Assembly (NCBI GenBank): GCA_005502805.1
Contig: SCMY01000010.1
Coordinates: 124,001-188,000 of the forward strand
DNA: 64,000 nt
DNA from: Rhizobiales bacterium 2SD
GTDB taxonomy: Bacteria; Pseudomonadota; Alphaproteobacteria; Rhizobiales; Beijerinckiaceae
Direction: 5' to 3'
Positions 14,124 to 23,550 of this stretch are shown here, piece after piece. The notes below the pieces were generated by a model. That model searched no databases. It was not told the origin of the DNA and saw only the letters and a program-made list of their open reading frames with translations. Each line of letters opens with the position of its first letter. The first letter of the stretch is position 1. Made by a program: the position numbers and the translations under genes.

Positions 14124-15239
14124 ATGAGTCCTGTCGGCGCGTTGCTGCGCGATCTCGAGACGACGATGGCACGCGGCTCGACCGATGAGCGCGCCGTCAT
14201 CCTGTCGCGACTGACCGATCTCTTCCTGGCCACGGCCAATGAGATGGGCGAGGATCAGGTCGGCGTTTTCGACGTGGTGATCGGCCGGCTCGCCCGCGCG
14301 ATCGAGATGCGGGCGCGCATCGAACTGGCCGAGCGGCTGGCACCGGTTGCCAATGCGCCGAGCGGAGTCGTTCGCCAGCTCGCCCTTGATGAAATCGCAG
14401 TCGCGCGGCCGGTCCTCGTCGCTTCGCCGCGACTCAGCGACCATGATCTCGTCGCCATCGCTGCCGCCAAGGGCCGCGATCACATGCTCGCCATCACCGA
14501 GCGCCCCGATCTCGGTGAGCCGGTCACGGATTTCCTGATCCTGCGAGGCGGCCGCGTCGTCACGCATGCCGTCGCCGCCAACCAGACCGCCCGCTTCTCG
14601 CGGCACGGCATGGGCGTCCTGGTCATGCGCGCCGCCCAGGACGATGCCTTGCAGACGACGCTCGGCGGCCGGGCCGACATACCCGCCGATCTCGCCGAAC
14701 AGCTGATGGCCGCCGCCAAGACCTCGGCCCGCCGTCGTCTCGAGGCGACACTGGAGCCATCTCTGGCGGGCGCGGTCGCCAGCGCGGTCGAGCGCGGCGC
14801 CGAGGCTGTTTCGGTTCGAGCGTCGGTCGGCGACGAGCTTGGCCGCTTCGGTTCGGCATTGGCCGACGTCAGGGTCCTCGAGGAAGCGGGCAAGCTCGAC
14901 GAGTCGGTGGTCGCGCAATATGCGGTGTCCGGCGCCGTGGAACATGCGATCTGCGGGGTCGCCACCCTGGCTCGCCTGACCTTGCCGGCCACCGAACAGA
15001 TCATCTTCGGCCCCGATCGCGACGCTGTCCTGCTGGTCGGGCGCGGTATGGGCTGGTCCTGGGAGACGGTCCGGGCGCTGATCGGCCTGCGCAAGGGCGA
15101 CGGCAAATCCGCTCCAGTGCTCGAACGGGCCCGGCAGAGCTTCCGTAATCTGACGCCGACCACGGCGCAGCGCGTGCTCGGCTTCCTCAGGATGCGCGAC
15201 GGCGCGCAGTCAGATAGCTCGGCACCCGTCCGGCCTTGA
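14124..15239 (+). CDS. DUF2336 domain-containing protein
   Basis: A 371-residue protein of the alphaproteobacterial DUF2336 family, function unknown. It is mainly alpha-helical with HEAT-like character (e.g. VFDVVIGRLARAIEMRARIELAERLAPVANAP; ITERPDLGEPVTDFLILRGG). No signal peptide or membrane helix is seen, so it is probably cytoplasmic. The ATG at 14124 overlaps a possible GTG at 14121. It stands alone on the plus strand between two minus-strand operons. Its 3' end overlaps the end of the convergent trmB by 53 bp. Confidence 0.85.
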   Translation: MSPVGALLRDLETTMARGSTDERAVILSRLTDLFLATANEMGEDQVGVFDVVIGRLARAIEMRARIELAERLAPVANAPSGVVRQLALDEIAVARPVLVASPRLSDHDLVAIAAAKGRDHMLAITERPDLGEPVTDFLILRGGRVVTHAVAANQTARFSRHGMGVLVMRAAQDDALQTTLGGRADIPADLAEQLMAAAKTSARRRLEATLEPSLAGAVASAVERGAEAVSVRASVGDELGRFGSALADVRVLEEAGKLDESVVAQYAVSGAVEHAICGVATLARLTLPATEQIIFGPDRDAVLLVGRGMGWSWETVRALIGLRKGDGKSAPVLERARQSFRNLTPTTAQRVLGFLRMRDGAQSDSSAPVRP

Positions 15240-15879
15240 TCGCCTTGGCCTCGTAGCGGGTACGGACCCAGCCGGGATAGGGCTGGCGCCAGTCGTCCGC
15301 GCTCTCGTCGACCCAGTCGAAATCGGGTGAGGCGGCGAGCCGCGCCAGCGTCCAGCCAACATAGTCGTCGATGTCGCTGGCGAAGCGGAAGCGCCCGCCC
15401 GGCCGCAGCACCCTGGCAAGCAGGGACAGCGTTCGTTCCGAGACGAAGCGGCGCTTGCGCTGCCGGCGCTTCGGCCAGGGGTCCGGATAGAGCAGGTCGG
15501 CCGCATCGACGCTTCCCTCGGGCAGCTGCGGTAGCAGCAGTGCGGCATCGCCGTCCCAGAGCCGGATGTTGCGCAACCCCTCCTTCTCGATCACGGCCAG
15601 GAACTTGGCCATGCCGTTGACGAAGGGCTCGACGCCGATGAAGCCGATCTGCGGGCTCTCGCGCATGCGGGCCAGCAGATGCTCACCACCGCCGAAACCG
15701 ATCTCCAGCCTGACCGCTTCGACCGGGCCGGGGAAAAGCGTCTTCAGATCCAGGATCGGTCCTTCGGGCAGGCGAAGCGCCGGCAGGATCTCGGCGATGC
15801 GTTCGGCCTGGCCTTGCCGCAAGCCCTTGCCCTTGCGTCGGCCGAAGAAAGCCCGTTCTGAATCATGCTGGTCTGTCAT
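15187..15879 (-). CDS. trmB: tRNA (guanine-N7-)-methyltransferase TrmB
   Basis: A 230-residue SAM-dependent enzyme that makes m7G46 in tRNA. The SAM site (VRLEIGFGGGEHLLARM), the family signature LLYPDPWPKRRQRKRRFV and the following LLARVLRPGGRFRFASD are all present. It follows metK after an intrinsic terminator, so it may have its own promoter or rely on readthrough. The last 53 bp are shared with the convergent DUF2336 gene. Confidence 0.95.
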   Translation of the reverse strand: MTDQHDSERAFFGRRKGKGLRQGQAERIAEILPALRLPEGPILDLKTLFPGPVEAVRLEIGFGGGEHLLARMRESPQIGFIGVEPFVNGMAKFLAVIEKEGLRNIRLWDGDAALLLPQLPEGSVDAADLLYPDPWPKRRQRKRRFVSERTLSLLARVLRPGGRFRFASDIDDYVGWTLARLAASPDFDWVDESADDWRQPYPGWVRTRYEAKAIKAGRVPSYLTARRRAS

Positions 15880-15904
15880 GAGACGCCCTTACGGCGAACG
15901 GCGG

Positions 15905-15936
15905 AAAAGAAAAAGGCCGGGGGCAACCCCGGCCTT
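15905..15936 (-). terminator. Intrinsic terminator downstream of metK
   Basis: On the minus strand a perfect 10-bp GC-rich stem (arms 15936-15927 and 15922-15913, loop 15923-15926) is followed by a U-rich run (plus-strand A-rich 15905-15914). It lies 24 nt after the metK stop and before trmB. Stem, loop and U tract are all classical. Confidence 0.85.
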
Positions 15937-15959
15937 CGCATCGAGGTTGACGCCAGGGA

Positions 15960-17165
<1,206 letters not shown>

Positions 17166-17278
17166 TGGCGGGGATCCTTCCCAGGCTGCGAAGCGGCGCC
17201 GGCGGATACCTGCGCGCGGAAAAAAGCGCAGCGTCTTTTGCAGCGGAAAGGTTCGCCGTCAAGGCAGGAAATTCGTTT

Positions 17279-17294
17279 GAACGATACTTCGTTC
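17279..17294. promoter_or_regulatory. Palindrome upstream of metK, candidate operator
   Basis: GAACGA (17279-17284), spacer TACT, TCGTTC (17289-17294) form a perfect 6+6 inverted repeat. Further TTCG/CGAA motifs lie on both sides (17272-17305). It sits between the XRE copy B stop and the metK start, about 115-130 nt upstream of metK. It could be bound by one of the nearby XRE repressors; that is inference. Confidence 0.4.
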
Positions 17295-17320
17295 GTCAAG
17301 GCGAACAAAAAATGGAAGTT

Positions 17321-17734
17321 TCAGGCGATTTCGCCGGATTCATCGGCCAAGGCCTCGACAAGATCAATGACACGTCGGCGCACGCGCGGGCTCTTGATAC
17401 GCACGAACGCCTTCGACAGCTGGATGCCTTCGCTGGTGGTGAGGAAGTCGGCGACATAGGCAGTCGCCGCGGTATCCGTGAAACTGCCGGCGACGGCCTC
17501 GCCAGCGGGGGCGCCTTCGAAAAAGAAGGCGACAGGCACGCCCAGCATCTTGGCGATCTGCTGCAGCCGGCTGGCGCTGATTCTATTGGTGCCCTTCTCG
17601 TATTTCTGAACCTGCTGGAAGGTCAGGCCGAGCGCTTCGCCAAGTTTTTCCTGGCTGATGCCCGCCAGCATACGCTGCATTCGGACACGGCTGCCGACAT
17701 GGCGGTCGATCGGATTCGGAAGTTTCTTGAGCAT
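17321..17734 (-). CDS. XRE-family repressor, PhrR/PraR-like, copy B
   Basis: A 137-residue HTH_3 regulator. The helix-turn-helix is at ~15-70 (SQEKLGEALGLTFQQVQKYEKG, then NRISASRLQQI), followed by a helical C-terminal dimerisation part (KAFVRIKSPRVRRRVIDLVEAL). The ATG at 17734 has GAGGTGA 7 nt upstream; longer in-frame starts lack this. It is about four-fifths identical by eye to copy A at 19842-20261, with an identical recognition region. Relatives include PhrR (low-pH induced, beside lnt/actA in Sinorhizobium) and PraR, a repressor of quorum-sensing genes in Rhizobium. It is divergent from luxR across ~146 bp, so luxR is a plausible target. Confidence 0.9.
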   Translation of the reverse strand: MLKKLPNPIDRHVGSRVRMQRMLAGISQEKLGEALGLTFQQVQKYEKGTNRISASRLQQIAKMLGVPVAFFFEGAPAGEAVAGSFTDTAATAYVADFLTTSEGIQLSKAFVRIKSPRVRRRVIDLVEALADESGEIA

Positions 17735-17808
17735 GGGCCGTTCACCTCGCTTCCCACTCAATCTCAGTTCCGGCTTCACGTCTACCATCGGCGCGAGGTG
17801 CATCTGGA

Positions 17809-17827
17809 TTGGTATGCCTTGGTATGC
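17809..17827. promoter_or_regulatory. Tandem 10-bp direct repeat in the luxR/XRE-B divergent region
   Basis: TTGGTATGC occurs at 17809-17817 and again at 17819-17827, a period of exactly 10 bp, i.e. one helical turn. It lies 54-72 nt upstream of the luxR ATG and upstream of the divergent XRE gene. Such phased repeats are typical of cooperative regulator binding. The binding protein is unknown. Confidence 0.45.
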
Positions 17828-17880
17828 GTTGATTCTTTGCCGCTCTGAGCAGAAAATGGGCTGGTCAGGGAAGGCGGGAC

Positions 17881-18612
17881 ATGTCGGGACGGCATTTCAA
17901 CGCGGGACGGGACGCGCTCGACTTTATCGATCGGCTGAGCGTGCTCAGCGATCCGACGACGGTCGTCGCCGCCTTGCGTGACAAGCTCGCAAGCTACGGT
18001 TTCCACGCGTTCCTGATCACGGGACTGCCGGAGATCGGCGACAGGATTGATCCGCTCGTCCTTCTCAATGGCTGGCCGCCGGGCTGGTTCGAGCTCTATC
18101 TGGAGAAATCCTTCTCGGATTGGGATCCGATCGCGGCGCACTGCAAAACGACGATCGATCCGTTCGCCTGGAACGATGTCTATCATGAGGACGAGGCTTC
18201 CAGGCGTCAGCGCGAGGTGATGCATCGGGCTCGCGATTTCAGCATGATCGAGGGCTTCTGCGTCCCGATTCATGGCGAAGCGGGTTTCCAGGCCGTGGTC
18301 ACCATGGCCGGCGACCGGCCGGACCTGTCGCGCCAGGCTCGCTCGGCCATCCACCTGATGTCGATCTATGCCCATGGCAAAGCGGCCGACTGCTTGCGGC
18401 CGGCCCGCCGCGAGCATGTCCTGACCGTCCGCGAGCGCGAAGTCCTGACCTGGTTCGCGATCGGCAAGACGACCGAGGGCGTGGCGGAGCGCCTGGGCGT
18501 TTCGGCCGGCACGGCCGAGGCGCATTTCGAGAATGCCGCCAGGAAGCTCGGCGTCAGGGGCCGCACACGTACGGTGATCGAGGCCTATCGCCGCGGCGAA
18601 ATCAGCATCTGA
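17881..18612 (+). CDS. LuxR-type acyl-homoserine-lactone receptor/regulator
   Basis: A 243-residue quorum-sensing regulator. All six residues conserved in AHL receptors are present with exactly the TraR spacing: W69, Y73, D82, P83, W97 and G125. The C-terminal HTH (~180-238) has the conserved E185, L189 and G195 and the scaffold VAERLGVSAGTAEAHFENAARKLGV. It is therefore expected to bind an acyl-HSL-type ligand. It is followed by the cognate synthase gene 92 bp downstream with a perfect 16-bp palindrome between them. The cassette is on the plus strand, opposite to all its flanking genes. Confidence 0.93.
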   Translation: MSGRHFNAGRDALDFIDRLSVLSDPTTVVAALRDKLASYGFHAFLITGLPEIGDRIDPLVLLNGWPPGWFELYLEKSFSDWDPIAAHCKTTIDPFAWNDVYHEDEASRRQREVMHRARDFSMIEGFCVPIHGEAGFQAVVTMAGDRPDLSRQARSAIHLMSIYAHGKAADCLRPARREHVLTVREREVLTWFAIGKTTEGVAERLGVSAGTAEAHFENAARKLGVRGRTRTVIEAYRRGEISI

Positions 18613-18630
18613 CGCGAATTCGGCCGCATC

Positions 18631-18646
18631 TTCCGGAATTCCGGAA
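18631..18646. promoter_or_regulatory. Perfect 16-bp palindrome upstream of luxI, candidate lux box
   Basis: TTCCGGAATTCCGGAA is a perfect palindrome and also a tandem repeat of the self-complementary octamer TTCCGGAA. It lies between the luxR stop (18612) and the luxI start (18704), 57-73 nt before the ATG, where lux boxes normally sit. The sequence does not match the canonical ACCTGnnCAGGT type, so assignment rests on position and symmetry. Confidence 0.6.
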
Positions 18647-18703
18647 TACCCATGAAACCTGAAAGGGGCCAGCCTGCATCCCTCAAGGAAGGGGGAAGCG
18701 GCG

Positions 18704-19348
18704 ATGATCCACGTTGTCGATGCCGGCAATCGGCATCTCTACGGTGCCGAGCTCGAGCAGCATTTCAGGATTCGGCACCAGATCTATGTCGGCGAGCGCA
18801 AATGGATGGCGCTCGAGCGGTCGGATGGTCGGGAGGTCGATCAGTTCGACAATGAAGACGCGACCTATCTGCTGGCGCTCGAGAATGGGCGGGTGATCGG
18901 AGGCACCAGGCTGGTTCCGACGCTGGGGCCGCATTTGATGGCCGACGTATTTCCGTTCCTGGCGGATGTGCGCGGGCTTCAGCGCGGCAGCGACATCGTC
19001 GAGTGGACCCGCATTTTCGTCGTGCCCGAGCGACGCGGCGGGGACAGCAAGGTTCTGCACACCGTCTTGGCCGGCATGTTCGAGTATTGCCTCGCCAACG
19101 ACATCGCGGCGATCACGGTGGTGATGGAGACCTGGTGGATGCCGCGTTTCCTGGAGCTCGGCTGGGAGGTCCGGCCGCTTGGGCTCCCGACGATGATCGA
19201 TGGCATGAACTGCGTCGGTACGATCATCACGGTGAGCGAGGAAGCGTATCGCCGCACGCTCGCGTTCAAGGATATCGATGCACCGGTCATACTGTCGTCC
19301 GGCAAGGCGACGCAGCGGCCGGCTGAGCGGAGGGCACGGCATGGCTAG
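18704..19348 (+). CDS. LuxI-type acyl-homoserine-lactone synthase (BjaI/RpaI-like)
   Basis: A 214-residue autoinducer synthase. The catalytic and SAM-binding residues conserved in the family are present: R24, W34, D46, D49, R69, E100 and R103; the usual Phe28 is Tyr. The opening MIHVV...RHLY...FRIRHQIYVGERKW and the ETWWMPRF segment resemble the BjaI/RpaI branch, some of which use unusual acyl- or aryl-CoA donors. The signal made here cannot be read from sequence. A GGAAGGGGG ribosome-binding site precedes the ATG. Its last 8 bp overlap the next gene. Confidence 0.92.
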   Translation: MIHVVDAGNRHLYGAELEQHFRIRHQIYVGERKWMALERSDGREVDQFDNEDATYLLALENGRVIGGTRLVPTLGPHLMADVFPFLADVRGLQRGSDIVEWTRIFVVPERRGGDSKVLHTVLAGMFEYCLANDIAAITVVMETWWMPRFLELGWEVRPLGLPTMIDGMNCVGTIITVSEEAYRRTLAFKDIDAPVILSSGKATQRPAERRARHG

Positions 19349-19628
19349 TCAGCATGATGCGAGCAGCAGCCGCGCCAAAATCGAATATGCGCTCGGACTG
19401 CTCACCAATCTTCTGCGCAACCAGCCGGTGCATCAGGAGCTGGTGGACGTCGCGCATCGCATGGACCTGCCGGACGAGCTCTGGCTTGCGGTCCAGATCC
19501 TGTCCATGTCGGAACCGGATCAGGCGAAGCTCAGGGATTTCCTGTTGGTCAACCCCAATCCGCAGCTGCAACGGCTCAACCGCAACACGCTCGTCCTGAC
19601 ACAGGACGCTGTGCCGGTGCTGCATTAG
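19341..19628 (+). CDS. Small protein coupled to the AHL synthase (CinS-like position)
   Basis: A 95-residue protein whose ATG lies inside the last codons of luxI (8-bp overlap), so its translation is probably coupled to synthase translation. It is predicted helical and acidic-to-neutral, with IEYALGLLTNLLRNQP and a C-terminal QLQRLNRNTLVLTQD segment; there is no signal peptide, membrane helix or HTH. The order synthase-small protein matches Rhizobium cinI-cinS, where CinS relieves repression by the XRE protein PraR. The PraR-like genes on both sides make that role attractive. Sequence homology to CinS was not established. Confidence 0.75.
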   Translation: MASQHDASSSRAKIEYALGLLTNLLRNQPVHQELVDVAHRMDLPDELWLAVQILSMSEPDQAKLRDFLLVNPNPQLQRLNRNTLVLTQDAVPVLH

Positions 19629-19776
19629 ACCGCCGCGCGTCTGAACGGACGCGGTCACGATGATGCATCACATTGTTATCGCGCCGGATCGTTCCGAAAA
19701 GTGAAGCCTGTTTTTCGGTCTGATGCCATGGAGCCGGCCGGCAAGCGCTGTCGACCGCACCGCGGACTGCGAGCCC

Positions 19777-19802
19777 ATGGTCAGATCGATCGACCTGACC
19801 AT
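19777..19802. repeat. Inverted repeat between the small gene and XRE copy A
   Basis: ATGGTCAG (19777-19784) and CTGACCAT (19795-19802) are perfect 8-bp arms separated by 10 nt. They lie in the 213-bp gap between two convergent genes. There is no T tract, so it may be a weak bidirectional terminator or a protein site. A shorter GC-rich hairpin is also seen at 19628-19656 right after the small gene. Confidence 0.4.
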
Positions 19803-19841
19803 GCCAAGATCGGGGCCGGCCCCCGCTGCGTCCGGTCGAGC

Positions 19842-20261
19842 CTACTGCTCGATGGTTTCGGTCGGCGCGTCGCCGAGGGACTCGACGAGATCGACGATGC
19901 GTCGGCGCACGCGTGGGCTCTTGATGCGAACGAACGCCTTGGTCAACTGCACGCCTTCGCTTGTCGCAAGAAAATCGGCGACATAGGTGGTCGCTGGCGC
20001 GTCGGCGAAACCGTTCCCGATCGTCTCGTCGGCCGGAGCACCGTCGAAGAAGAAGGCGACGGGCACGCCCAGCATCTTGGAGATCTGCTGCAACCGGCTC
20101 GCGCTGATCCGGTTGGTTCCCTTTTCATATTTCTGAACCTGCTGGAAGGTCAGACCGAGCGCCTCGCCGAGCTTTTCCTGGCTGACGCCGGCAAGCATGC
20201 GGCGCATGCGGACACGGCTGCCGACATGGCGGTCTATCGGATTCGGTACTTTTTTCAGCAT
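19842..20261 (-). CDS. XRE-family repressor, PhrR/PraR-like, copy A
   Basis: A 139-residue HTH_3 regulator with the same architecture as copy B at 17321-17734. The segment SQEKLGEALGLTFQQVQKYE and the following helix are identical, and most changes are in the loop after FFFDGAP and at the C-terminus. The ATG at 20261 (MLKKVPNP) aligns with copy B; longer starts do not align. It follows lnt by ~105 bp in the same direction, the arrangement known for Sinorhizobium actA(lnt)-phrR. Its probable job is repression of quorum-sensing, surface or acid-response genes. It may be co-transcribed with lnt. Confidence 0.9.
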   Translation of the reverse strand: MLKKVPNPIDRHVGSRVRMRRMLAGVSQEKLGEALGLTFQQVQKYEKGTNRISASRLQQISKMLGVPVAFFFDGAPADETIGNGFADAPATTYVADFLATSEGVQLTKAFVRIKSPRVRRRIVDLVESLGDAPTETIEQ

Positions 20262-20366
20262 CTTGGCCGGTCCCCTTTTCTTTCCATTCAGACCTGCCGG
20301 CGGCCCAAAACGGCCAGGCCCTGCCGGCTGCTCCGCGGTCTTCCCGTAAGAAAGTTCCAAATGGGA

Positions 20367-21965
20367 TCACCGTCTGCGCATTATTACTCCAGCGAGCAAG
20401 AGGCTGGCAACTACACCTGCAAAGAAAAGGTCGCCAAAGCGGGAATAGGGCGTCGCAGCCCCGGCACGGGGCAGGGAGGTATCGAGCACACCTGTTTCGC
20501 CGAGTGGCAGTGCAGCGCGGATCCGGCCGTAGTGATCGATGACCGCCGAGATGCCGGTATTGGCGACGCGCACCAGCGGCAGCCCTTCCTCGATGGCGCG
20601 CAGGCGGGCCTGGGCGAGGTGCTGATAGGGGCCGCTCGTCTGCCCGAACCAGCCGTCATTGGTCAGATTGAGCATGAAGCCTGGTCGAGGGCCGCTCGGC
20701 ATGGCTTCGCCGGGGAAGATCACTTCGTAGCAGATCAGGCTCGCGGCGGGCGGCAGGCCGCGGATCGCCAGGGGCGTGCGCCGATTGCCCGAGGCAAAGC
20801 CGCCGGGAACCGAGACGAACTCCGACAGGCCGACGGCGCGGATCAACCGGTCGAGAAAGGGTGGCAGGTATTCGCCGAACGGAACGAGATGGACCTTGTC
20901 GTAGCTGCCGGTGATCACGCCTTCGTCGTTTACCACCTGGATCGAGTTGTAGATCGGCGGCCGGCTCTCGCCCGGGAGCGTCTCGCCGGCCCGGGCGGCG
21001 CCGGTGATCAGCGTCGTGTTCGGCGGCAGCAGGGCGGCGATCCGCGCCAGCGCCTGCGGCGTGCGCCCGAGCAGGAAGGGGAAGGCCGATTCGGGCCAGA
21101 TCAGATGGGTCGTGTCCTGCACGCCGGTCGTCGCCGGGCCGGTCGCGCGATCGCTCAGCGCGAGGTACTGCGACAGGATCATCTCGCTGTTGCGCGGACT
21201 GAACTTGGCGTCCTGCGGCAGGTTCGGCTGCATCAGGCGCAACTTGACCCCGTTCACCGCCGGAACCGGCTCGGCCGGAATCCGCCAGGCGCCGAAACCG
21301 GCCATCACCACCAGCGCGAGCCCAGCCAGCGCCGGAGCGCGCCAGCGCCCCTCGCCCGCTTCGCCCGTGCCGAGCACGGCCGGCGCCGCGCCGATGGCGA
21401 CAGCCAGCGCGGTCATTCCGTAGAGCCCGATCAGGCTGGCGCTCTGGGCGAGCCAGGAAGGCCCGGCCAGCATCATGCCGTAGACGTTCCAGGGGAAGCC
21501 GGTGAGGACATGGCCGCGCAGCCACTCGCTCAGCGCCAGCACAGCCGCGAGGATCAGGATCCGTCCGGCGCCGACCGGCCAGATCGCCCGTGCCAGCGCG
21601 AAGCCCGCAGCCGGGAAGATGGCCAGGAAGGCCGGCAGCGCCACGACGCCGAGCGGCATCGCCCAGGCGAACTTGTCGGCCTCGACCAGGAAGGCGGCGC
21701 CCAGCCACCACAGCCCCGCGAGATGGTAACCGAACCCCCACCACCAGCCGGCGCTGGCGGCGGCCCAGAGGCGCCCGCGCCTGGTTTGCGCGACCGAGCC
21801 GTCGATCAGCCAGACTGCTGCGGTCATGGATACGACCATCAGCGGCCAAAGGTTAAACGGGGCCAGCGCCAATGCGCCGCTTGCCCCGCAGACGAGCGCG
21901 ATCAGCCGGCGCGGCCAGCCCCAGGCGAGGATGACGCGGTCGGCCAGCGCCGAGAAGGTGGTCAT
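20367..21965 (-). CDS. lnt: Apolipoprotein N-acyltransferase
   Basis: A 532-residue inner-membrane enzyme that adds the third acyl chain to lipoproteins. The N-terminal half has about six hydrophobic helices, including a Trp-rich stretch (AGWWWGFGYHLAGLWWLG). The C-terminal nitrilase-like domain carries the catalytic triad: Glu in IWPESAFPF, Lys in YDKVHLVPFGEYLP and Cys in SLICYEVIFPG. The Sinorhizobium homologue was first described as acid-tolerance gene actA. It overlaps the upstream corC-like gene by 4 bp (ATGA), in a phoH-ybeY-corC-lnt operon. Confidence 0.96.
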   Translation of the reverse strand: MTTFSALADRVILAWGWPRRLIALVCGASGALALAPFNLWPLMVVSMTAAVWLIDGSVAQTRRGRLWAAASAGWWWGFGYHLAGLWWLGAAFLVEADKFAWAMPLGVVALPAFLAIFPAAGFALARAIWPVGAGRILILAAVLALSEWLRGHVLTGFPWNVYGMMLAGPSWLAQSASLIGLYGMTALAVAIGAAPAVLGTGEAGEGRWRAPALAGLALVVMAGFGAWRIPAEPVPAVNGVKLRLMQPNLPQDAKFSPRNSEMILSQYLALSDRATGPATTGVQDTTHLIWPESAFPFLLGRTPQALARIAALLPPNTTLITGAARAGETLPGESRPPIYNSIQVVNDEGVITGSYDKVHLVPFGEYLPPFLDRLIRAVGLSEFVSVPGGFASGNRRTPLAIRGLPPAASLICYEVIFPGEAMPSGPRPGFMLNLTNDGWFGQTSGPYQHLAQARLRAIEEGLPLVRVANTGISAVIDHYGRIRAALPLGETGVLDTSLPRAGAATPYSRFGDLFFAGVVASLLLAGVIMRRR

Positions 21966-22954
21966 GCGGCGTCCGGCGCGGCTGGTGCTTCGGTCGCGAC
22001 CGGATCGCGGCGATGGATGCGCAGGCGCTTGACCCGGCGCGGATCGGCGTCGAGCACCTCGAACTCGAGCTCTTCGGGTCCTTTGATGAGCTCCCCGCGC
22101 ACCGGCACGCGGCCGGCGAGCGTCACGATCAGTCCGCCGAGCGTATCGACCTCCTCGGCCACCTCGGCGCGCGACAGGTCGATCCCGGTCGCCTCCTTCA
22201 GTTCGTCGAGCGTGGCGCGGGCATCTGCGATGTAGCGGTTCTCGCCGGCCGGCGCGATCGCCGGCGCCTCGTCGAGATCGTGCTCGTCCTCGATGTCGCC
22301 GACGACGATCTCGACGAGGTCCTCGATCGAGATCAGCCCGTCGGTGCCGCCATACTCGTCGATCACCAGGGCGATGTGGGTGCGCGTCGCCTGCATCCGG
22401 ACGAGAAGGTCGACCGCTGGCATGGATGGCGGAACATAGAGCACCGGCCGCAGGATCTTGGCCTGGGCCAGCGTCATCGACAGGTCGATGGCGCCGAGAC
22501 TCGGCCCGGCAGCAGCCTCCGCCTCGCCGCGCAGCTTCCGGCCCGGCTTGGCCCGGGCGGCGATGAAGTCGAGGAAGTCGCGGATGTGGATCATGCCACG
22601 GGGATCGTCGAGCGATTCGCCATAGACCGGCAGGCGCGAATGGCCGGCAGTACGAAACAGCGCCAGGAGGTCGCCGAGCGTCGCTTCCGACGAGACCGCG
22701 ATGACATCGGCGCGCGGCACCATCACGTCGGCGACACGGCGCTCGCGCAGGCTGAGCACGTTCGAGAGCATCGCCCGCTCCTGGGGCGAGAGATCGGTGA
22801 CCCCGCCGCCGTCCTGGGCCAGCGCCTCGGTGATGTCCTCGCGGATCGAGCCGCCATGGCGCAGGCCGAGCCGGTCGAGGAACTGGCCGAGCCAGTGGGA
22901 CAGACCGCGGCCTGATGGCTCAGACGATGAAGAAGATCGGGGGTCGTCGCTCAT
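21962..22954 (-). CDS. CorC/HlyC-family CBS-domain protein (YbeX-like)
   Basis: A 330-residue soluble protein with paired CBS domains (~75-195: [77 protein letters not shown]) and a C-terminal CorC_HlyC transporter-associated domain (~225-305). In E. coli the neighbour YbeX was linked to Mg/Co efflux and more recently to ribosome metabolism. The conserved ybeZ-ybeY-ybeX-lnt order supports this identity. Start and stop overlap ybeY and lnt by 4 bp each. Often annotated hemolysin, which is misleading. Confidence 0.93.
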
Positions 22955-23550
22955 GGCGCAGGCTGGGGTTTTGGGTTCTTGGCCGCTTGACGTGGCGGAG
23001 TGGGCTCGGGTTCGGAGCCGGCATAGGGGTCGGCGATGCCGAGCCGGGCGAGGGCGGCGGTCTCCAGCGCCTCCATGCGCTGGGCCTCTGCTTCCGTCTC
23101 GTGATCCTCACCGAGCAGATGCAGCAGTCCGTGGATCACGAGATGGCTGAGATGGTCGCCGAAGGATTTCTCCTCGGCCTGCGCTTCTCGAGCGACCGTC
23201 TCGAAGGCGAGCACGATGTCGCCGACGACTGGGCTCGCCGCGATCCGTTCGGGTGGCGCAGCCGGGAAGGAGAGGACGTTGGTCGCCTTGTCGAAGCCGC
23301 GCCAGTCGCGATTGACGATGCGGATGCGCTTGTCGTCGGTGAGCAGCAGGCTGAGCTCCGCTCCCGGCGAGGGCTTGACCGGCGCCAGCGCCAGCGCCGC
23401 TCCGACGGCAGCGGTGACGCGTGGTCGCAGATCCCCGACCTCGCGCCATTTCCGCGATTGCATGCGGATATCCAGTGACGGCCCGCCTGGGTCGGGTTCC
23501 GCTGCTTCGGTTCGCGGCGCTGCGCGCCGCGAACGAGATCGATCGGTCAT
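22951..23550 (-). CDS. ybeY: Endoribonuclease YbeY (rRNA maturation)
   Basis: A 199-residue metal-dependent RNase involved in 16S rRNA 3'-end maturation and ribosome quality control. The zinc triad is in HLVIHGLLHLLGEDH (HxxxHxxxxxH pattern), preceded by NVLSFPAAPPE and GDIVLAFETVAREA. An N-terminal ~35-residue Arg/Pro-rich extension precedes the domain, and a short Pro/Lys-rich tail follows. Overlaps with phoH and the corC-like gene show tight coupling. Confidence 0.95.
   Translation of the reverse strand: MTDRSRSRRAAPRTEAAEPDPGGPSLDIRMQSRKWREVGDLRPRVTAAVGAALALAPVKPSPGAELSLLLTDDKRIRIVNRDWRGFDKATNVLSFPAAPPERIAASPVVGDIVLAFETVAREAQAEEKSFGDHLSHLVIHGLLHLLGEDHETEAEAQRMEALETAALARLGIADPYAGSEPEPTPPRQAAKNPKPQPAP

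Follow-up and report, generated by a model that had tools for sequence, protein, structure and literature searches.

Architecture of a quorum-sensing cassette enclosed by two praR copies

In Rhizobiales bacterium 2SD (Alphaproteobacteria; Rhizobiales; Beijerinckiaceae), an acyl-homoserine lactone (AHL) quorum-sensing cassette lies between two copies of a praR/phrR-type XRE repressor gene, within the 64,000-nucleotide stretch analysed here (the window; assembly GCA_005502805.1, contig SCMY01000010.1, positions 124,001 to 188,000). The genes are arranged in the order metK (minus strand), praR_A (minus), luxR (plus), luxI (plus), a small gene (plus), praR_B (minus) and lnt (minus). The product of luxR (17881–18612, 243 amino acids) contains the Autoind_bind and GerE domains, and that of luxI (18704–19348, 214 amino acids) belongs to the AHL synthase family and contains Autoind_synth; the Pfam bit scores are 109.1, 55.7 and 84.6, respectively, against curated cut-offs of 23, 23.5 and 24. 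The regulator adjoins the synthase, as in a LuxR/LuxI pair. The small gene (19341–19628, plus strand), translationally coupled to luxI, encodes a 95-residue protein of no known family, which we propose as a PraR antagonist. The closest relatives at the locus are mostly records named Bosea.

The repressor gene copy A (17321–17734, minus strand, 137 amino acids) is located on the metK side and is divergent from luxR, and copy B (19842–20261, minus strand, 139 amino acids) is located on the lnt side, tail to tail with the small gene. Both proteins are about 140 residues long and carry a Cro/C1-type helix-turn-helix (HTH) in the N-terminal half (HTH_3 at residues 18–70, E-values 3.5e-14 and 3.3e-13), which fits the PraR/PhrR (CdxA) family. 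The flanking genes metK (15960–17165, minus strand; S-adenosylmethionine synthetase) and lnt (20367–21965, minus strand; apolipoprotein N-acyltransferase) are the ancestral downstream and upstream neighbours of praR, respectively. All five named genes, luxR, luxI, the small gene and the two XRE genes, are open at these coordinates, and the arrangement proposed from the sequence alone, with three plus-strand genes between two minus-strand XRE genes, is confirmed throughout. No RNA family reached its gathering threshold in 15000–23000, and a scan of 17100–20450 detected no promoter pattern of the sigma-70 type.

The cassette is confined to one Bosea clade

Searching 67 genomes of the genus, that of strain 2SD included, we found a luxI of at least 70% identity in 17, and in 11 of the 67 the cassette lies between two praR copies in the lnt–metK interval, with copy A on the metK side and copy B on the lnt side; one of these (G050) is counted although the locus there is split over two contigs. 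By comparison, all 56 cassette-free genomes carry a single praR between lnt and metK. Because of this synteny, the two XRE genes are assigned to the PraR/PhrR type. The gene trmB was seen after metK in 55 of the 56, the contig of the remaining locus (L124) ending inside metK. On a protein tree of lnt, metK and trmB, the 11 cassette genomes form one starred clade (support 100) adjoining G013 and G030, both of which lack the cassette; these markers flank the cassette and are therefore not independent of it. Median ratios of nonsynonymous to synonymous substitution rates (dN/dS) range from 0.07 to 0.12 across the five cassette genes of the 11 genomes. The restriction of the layout to one clade of 11 genomes among 67, together with these ratios, indicates that it is more than chance.

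Six further Bosea genomes, from three lineages, carry a luxI of at least 70% identity at other places, and one of these lux loci (G025), away from lnt–metK, has an adjacent PraR-like gene. In Bosea sp. BK604 (L045, 7119–9381), luxR, luxI, a small gene and a tail-to-tail PraR paralogue stand together at a site other than lnt–metK. A metagenome-assembled contig titled Methylobacterium sp. (L038) carries a Bosea-type locus; its label looks wrong, since the contig falls inside the Bosea cassette clade. The genome of strain 2SD itself holds two further luxI-type places (G000:C2:131464-131836 and G000:C5:43756-44193), the former consisting of two matched pieces, one with a stop.

The two praR copies derive from one local duplication

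In the window, copies A and B share 80% identity at both the protein and the DNA level. Within residues 1–75 they differ only at positions 5, 20, 26, 61 and 73, and their recognition helices are consequently identical. The sequence-only reading had taken the two genes for paralogues, about four-fifths identical with the same recognition helix, that arose by duplication of the phrR gene, and both points are borne out by the copies and by the lnt–metK interval compared across the 67 genomes. A protein tree built from 93 XRE genes places the A copies in one group (support 85) and the B copies in another (92) and joins the two in a starred A+B group (96), so that they are sister groups and not members of unrelated XRE subfamilies. 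The tree reflects one local duplication, which most probably took place before the 11 cassette genomes diverged. The sister relationship is less clear with other models or rows: the support was 90, not starred, in a second tree that left out five long-branched rows, and a third tree with only 17 single-copy rows gave an open fork. We saw no clear trace of gene conversion: A and B are 80.2% identical within the same genome and 79.4% identical between different genomes.

The lux-linked PraR of G025 may or may not share its origin with A and B. The tree places this gene with the G025 and G002 copies (starred, 96), grouping it with the lnt–metK copy of its own lineage, but an approximately unbiased test did not reject grouping with B (p 0.605) or with A+B (p 0.753).

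The positions at which the A and B groups share no residue are 5, 73, 80, 107, 122, 123, 128, 132 and later ones, all outside the HTH. In a structural model of copy A (predicted local distance difference test, pLDDT, 76.8; predicted template modelling score, pTM, 0.53), those from 107 on map to the helices 101–111 and 116–133 or to the tail. Because the diverged positions avoid the HTH, the two copies probably read the same DNA and may differ in their partners or assembly. Both copies are under constraint (dN/dS 0.096 and 0.090) and are kept in 11 of 11 genomes.

The linkage of copy A to lnt and of copy B to luxR, as proposed from the sequence alone, proved to be reversed when the copies are named in coordinate order: it is the copy at 17321 that faces luxR and adjoins metK, and the lnt-side promoter remains with the copy at 19842.

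A constrained small gene is coupled to luxI

In all 11 cassette genomes, the start codon of the small gene, an ATG preceded by GGAGG, overlaps the stop of luxI. The median dN/dS of 0.073 (55 pairs) further indicates constraint, and the small gene is thus real and coupled to luxI at the sequence level, as would be expected of a gene of the anti-repressor type. Searches with the protein gave no match in Pfam or NCBIfam at E-values up to 1, nor any PHROGs or Protein Data Bank (PDB) sequence match at the thresholds used. Its predicted structure (pLDDT 67.7, pTM 0.47) gave no Foldseek hit at E ≤0.001. Divergent relatives follow luxI in G025, G006, G051 and G063, whereas G052 carries an unlike open reading frame (ORF) at this position. 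The small gene after luxI in G048 (L056, 6523–6908) appears frameshifted, next to full-length luxI and luxR matches. In a sample of 347 genomes of the family, the small-protein profile matched eight Bosea genomes and, weakly, one genome of another genus; four comparisons across genera revealed no homology.

Presence of the small gene coincides with a second praR. At least two PraR genes (at least 60% identity) are present in 16 of 16 Bosea genomes with the small gene, G048 with its frameshifted copy among them, versus 5 of 51 without it (Fisher's test 1.8e-11, which ignores kinship). By analogy with known systems, the small protein is most likely a PraR antagonist, whether or not it is homologous to CinS or MmaP; we consider the chances for this role about even. 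It could instead act on LuxR, LuxI or another regulator, and the lack of detectable homology to an MmaP-like candidate is compatible with this, as is the report, in the passages covered, that CinS of Rhizobium leguminosarum is inferred to contact an additional regulator (PMC4149787). The occurrence of the small gene only together with at least two PraR genes across the 67 Bosea genomes speaks against such a target, which we regard as very improbable.

Control regions of the Bosea locus

The palindrome TTCCGGAATTCCGGAA is located at 18631–18646 upstream of luxI. It is exact in 8 of the 11 cassette genomes and carries one mismatch in the other 3, and related palindromes are present at six other Bosea lux loci; the palindrome is therefore probably a LuxR site. 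The divergent intergenic region between praR_A and luxR (17735–17880) holds the block GTATGCGTTGATTC at 17822–17835, which is exact in 10 of 11 cassette genomes, and TGCGTTGATTC is found in 11 of 11. The element GATCCCATTTGGAACT (20353–20368, minus strand) lies upstream of copy B at the stop of lnt; a strict pattern search detected it in 11 of 11 B promoters and in 37 of 56 single-copy praR promoters. It was not found upstream of copy A (0 of 11).

The published PraR consensus, obtained by systematic evolution of ligands by exponential enrichment, is CAAC-N5-GTTG, and candidate PraR sites in the reb promoter are described there with two to three substitutions (PMC5527310). Operators were searched for by counting mismatches in comparison with shuffled sequences and by ranking the motif among 256 palindromic half-sites. 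In four Bosea region sets, the PraR motif ranked 129, 169, 218 and 221 of 256, being 169th in the A/luxR and 221st in the luxR/luxI regions. The motif search hence lends no support to the earlier suggestion that PraR acts on the Bosea lux promoters. The conserved element TCCCATTTGGAAC upstream of the single praR genes resembles the consensus in its N5 dyad spacing but not in its half-sites, and is not claimed as an operator; the half-site TTCC ranked first of 256 in 48 single-copy praR promoters (8 of an outgroup clade left out). By eye, several single-copy praR leaders (L073–L128) hold an inverted repeat, GACCAGGA...TCCTGGTC, between the promoter element and the start codon.

PraR-like genes beside lux elsewhere in the family

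We fetched 60 lux loci of the family, selected by hand among the search matches listed. In one genus (g32), a PraR-like gene lies at most 3 kb from lux in 17 of the 19 fetched loci (L138–L156; 16 genomes). The order is praR′ (minus), luxR (plus), luxI (plus) in 14 of the 19, and praR′ stands beyond luxI in three; two of the 14 praR′ genes show internal stops (G345, G369). A separate praR is present at lnt–metK in 16 of 16 genomes, and the lux-linked praR′ genes fall into two separate clades, neither of which includes A or B; some branches are long. Two seemingly unrelated small-ORF families follow luxI in this genus. Of the 6 loci fetched from another genus (g40), 2 (L179, L180) carry luxR and luxI in the space separating lnt from a single praR, and these genes all share one strand. 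Among nine named lux loci outside Bosea (Erwinia L052 excluded), a PraR-like match is missing in seven, lies 1.9 kb away in one and is weak in another.

The 14 PraR′/luxR intergenic regions of g32 were ranked in the same way. CAAC with a spacer of 5 shares the top rank among the 256 half-sites with two others, at a mean of 1.86 mismatches compared with a median of 2.57 over the 256. Counted from the repressor end, a match with one to three mismatches starts at 51–61 bases in 13 of 14 regions and at 118 in L139, where the repressor is broken. For a set of related sequences, this is modest evidence that the neighbouring PraR-like repressor may act in the intergenic region.

These observations bear on a self-contained loop, in which PraR-A or both copies would repress luxR from the divergent promoter and the small protein would lift this repression, resulting in positive feedback with two set points. 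The divergent layout, the intergenic block conserved in the 11 genomes and the PraR-type match at a conserved position of the equivalent g32 region are in line with such a loop. Yet the Bosea motif ranks 169th of 256 in the very intergenic region concerned, and a second threshold is not visible in the sequence. We thus consider the loop rather unlikely, and the two thresholds put forward in the sequence-only reading are hypothetical, as is its link of one repressor copy to the acid response.

Discussion

Our preferred reading is that the AHL quorum-sensing cassette between two praR daughter copies arose once, in the ancestor of one Bosea clade, and that its small protein relieves PraR control; taken as a whole, we judge it about as probable as its negation. 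LuxR with its signal would activate the luxI–small gene operon through the palindrome at 18631–18646. The small protein would then bind one or both PraR copies, perhaps via their diverged C-terminal helices, and PraR control would be relieved at high cell density, as with CinS and MmaP. Copy B retains the ancestral lnt-side promoter, and copy A has a new promoter region in common with luxR. With separate promoters, the two copies could answer to different inputs.

The precedent for quorum-sensing repression and its relief, on which the sequence-only reading had drawn, exists in the accounts of CinS and PraR and of MmaP (PMC4149787, PMC10790750). As described in the passages covered, the CinS protein of R. 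leguminosarum both binds PraR and inactivates it, and lifts the PraR repression of rhiR and raiR (PMC4149787, PMC5977203). This Cin system (cinR-cinIS with PraR) resembles the Bosea locus in its LuxR/LuxI pair, its small protein coexpressed with the synthase and its PraR repressor. However, CinS acts on the PraR repression of other quorum-sensing genes, whereas in Bosea two praR copies enclose the cassette. In Methylobacterium fujisawaense, MmaP, encoded by the gene after mmaI, is reported to bind PraR (PMC10790750). The Mma system (mmaR, mmaI, mmaP) likewise has a small gene directly after the luxI-type gene, with cotranscription reported for Mma, and its praR is followed by metK and a tRNA-methyltransferase gene, as at the Bosea praR (PMC10790750). 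By comparison, MmaP has 59 residues and the Bosea protein 95, and the gene number of the Mma praR is distant from that of mmaR. A second PraR-type gene is also described in R. leguminosarum, where RL0149 is a PraR paralogue repressed by PraR; unlike the Bosea copies, it is not described as lux-linked in the passages covered, and its mutant showed no effect on the genes and biofilm assayed but competed less well in nodules (PMC4149787, PMC10688885). Bosea massiliensis is reported to produce AHLs (PMC4732077). In the titles, abstract openings and passages covered, we saw no account of lux genes physically joined to praR.

Several observations weigh against our reading and its extension to the family. 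For CAAC-N5-GTTG, the Bosea A/luxR, luxR/luxI and B promoters show no more than chance matches, and in 10 of the 14 g32 regions the best PraR-motif match is no better than about half of the shuffles of the same region. Five Bosea lux loci (G006, G051, G063, G048 and G052) have no adjacent praR, the second praR of the first four not being next to lux, and the 35 fetched loci outside g32 and g40 yielded one weak XRE match and none in 34. The link between small gene and second praR comprises three independent contrasts, all in agreement (sign test p 0.25), a number too small to reach significance. In addition, the Bosea small protein has no similarity to the two g32 small families or to the MmaP-like candidate (hhalign probability 0.08%, for a candidate that may not be MmaP; CinS was not compared).

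The missing motif and the many lux loci without praR, in Bosea as in the fetched loci of the family, are what incidental linkage would predict: in an lnt–metK interval tolerant of insertions, the recombination that brought in lux would have duplicated praR as a side effect, with PraR and quorum sensing not functionally tied in this clade. The constraint on both copies and their retention in all 11 genomes are against this, as is the recurrence of PraR-like genes beside lux elsewhere in the family, and we hold incidental linkage to be improbable.

A broader reading, which we advance tentatively as somewhat doubtful, is that, in this family, the lux locus of quorum-sensing systems has repeatedly acquired a PraR-type repressor of its own together with an anti-repressor specific to the lineage. 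The order in 14 of the 19 g32 loci corresponds to the copy A side of Bosea, but the PraR clades, the small-protein families and the site, which is not lnt–metK, are different. In our view, lux loci captured praR several separate times, the exact number being uncertain. In the Bosea clade, the module would then have formed at the native praR site when praR was duplicated on either side of the cassette; the two resulting repressors would read the same DNA but differ in promoter and in C-terminal surface.

That quorum sensing and PraR are connected is already known from Rhizobium and Methylobacterium; in one Bosea clade, the parts occur together. Relatives show further arrangements of lux with a neighbouring PraR-like gene, and the small proteins there seem to be unrelated. 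These sets of loci provide pairs of a repressor and a presumed anti-repressor, and offer a view of how a conserved repressor may be captured by a signalling system.

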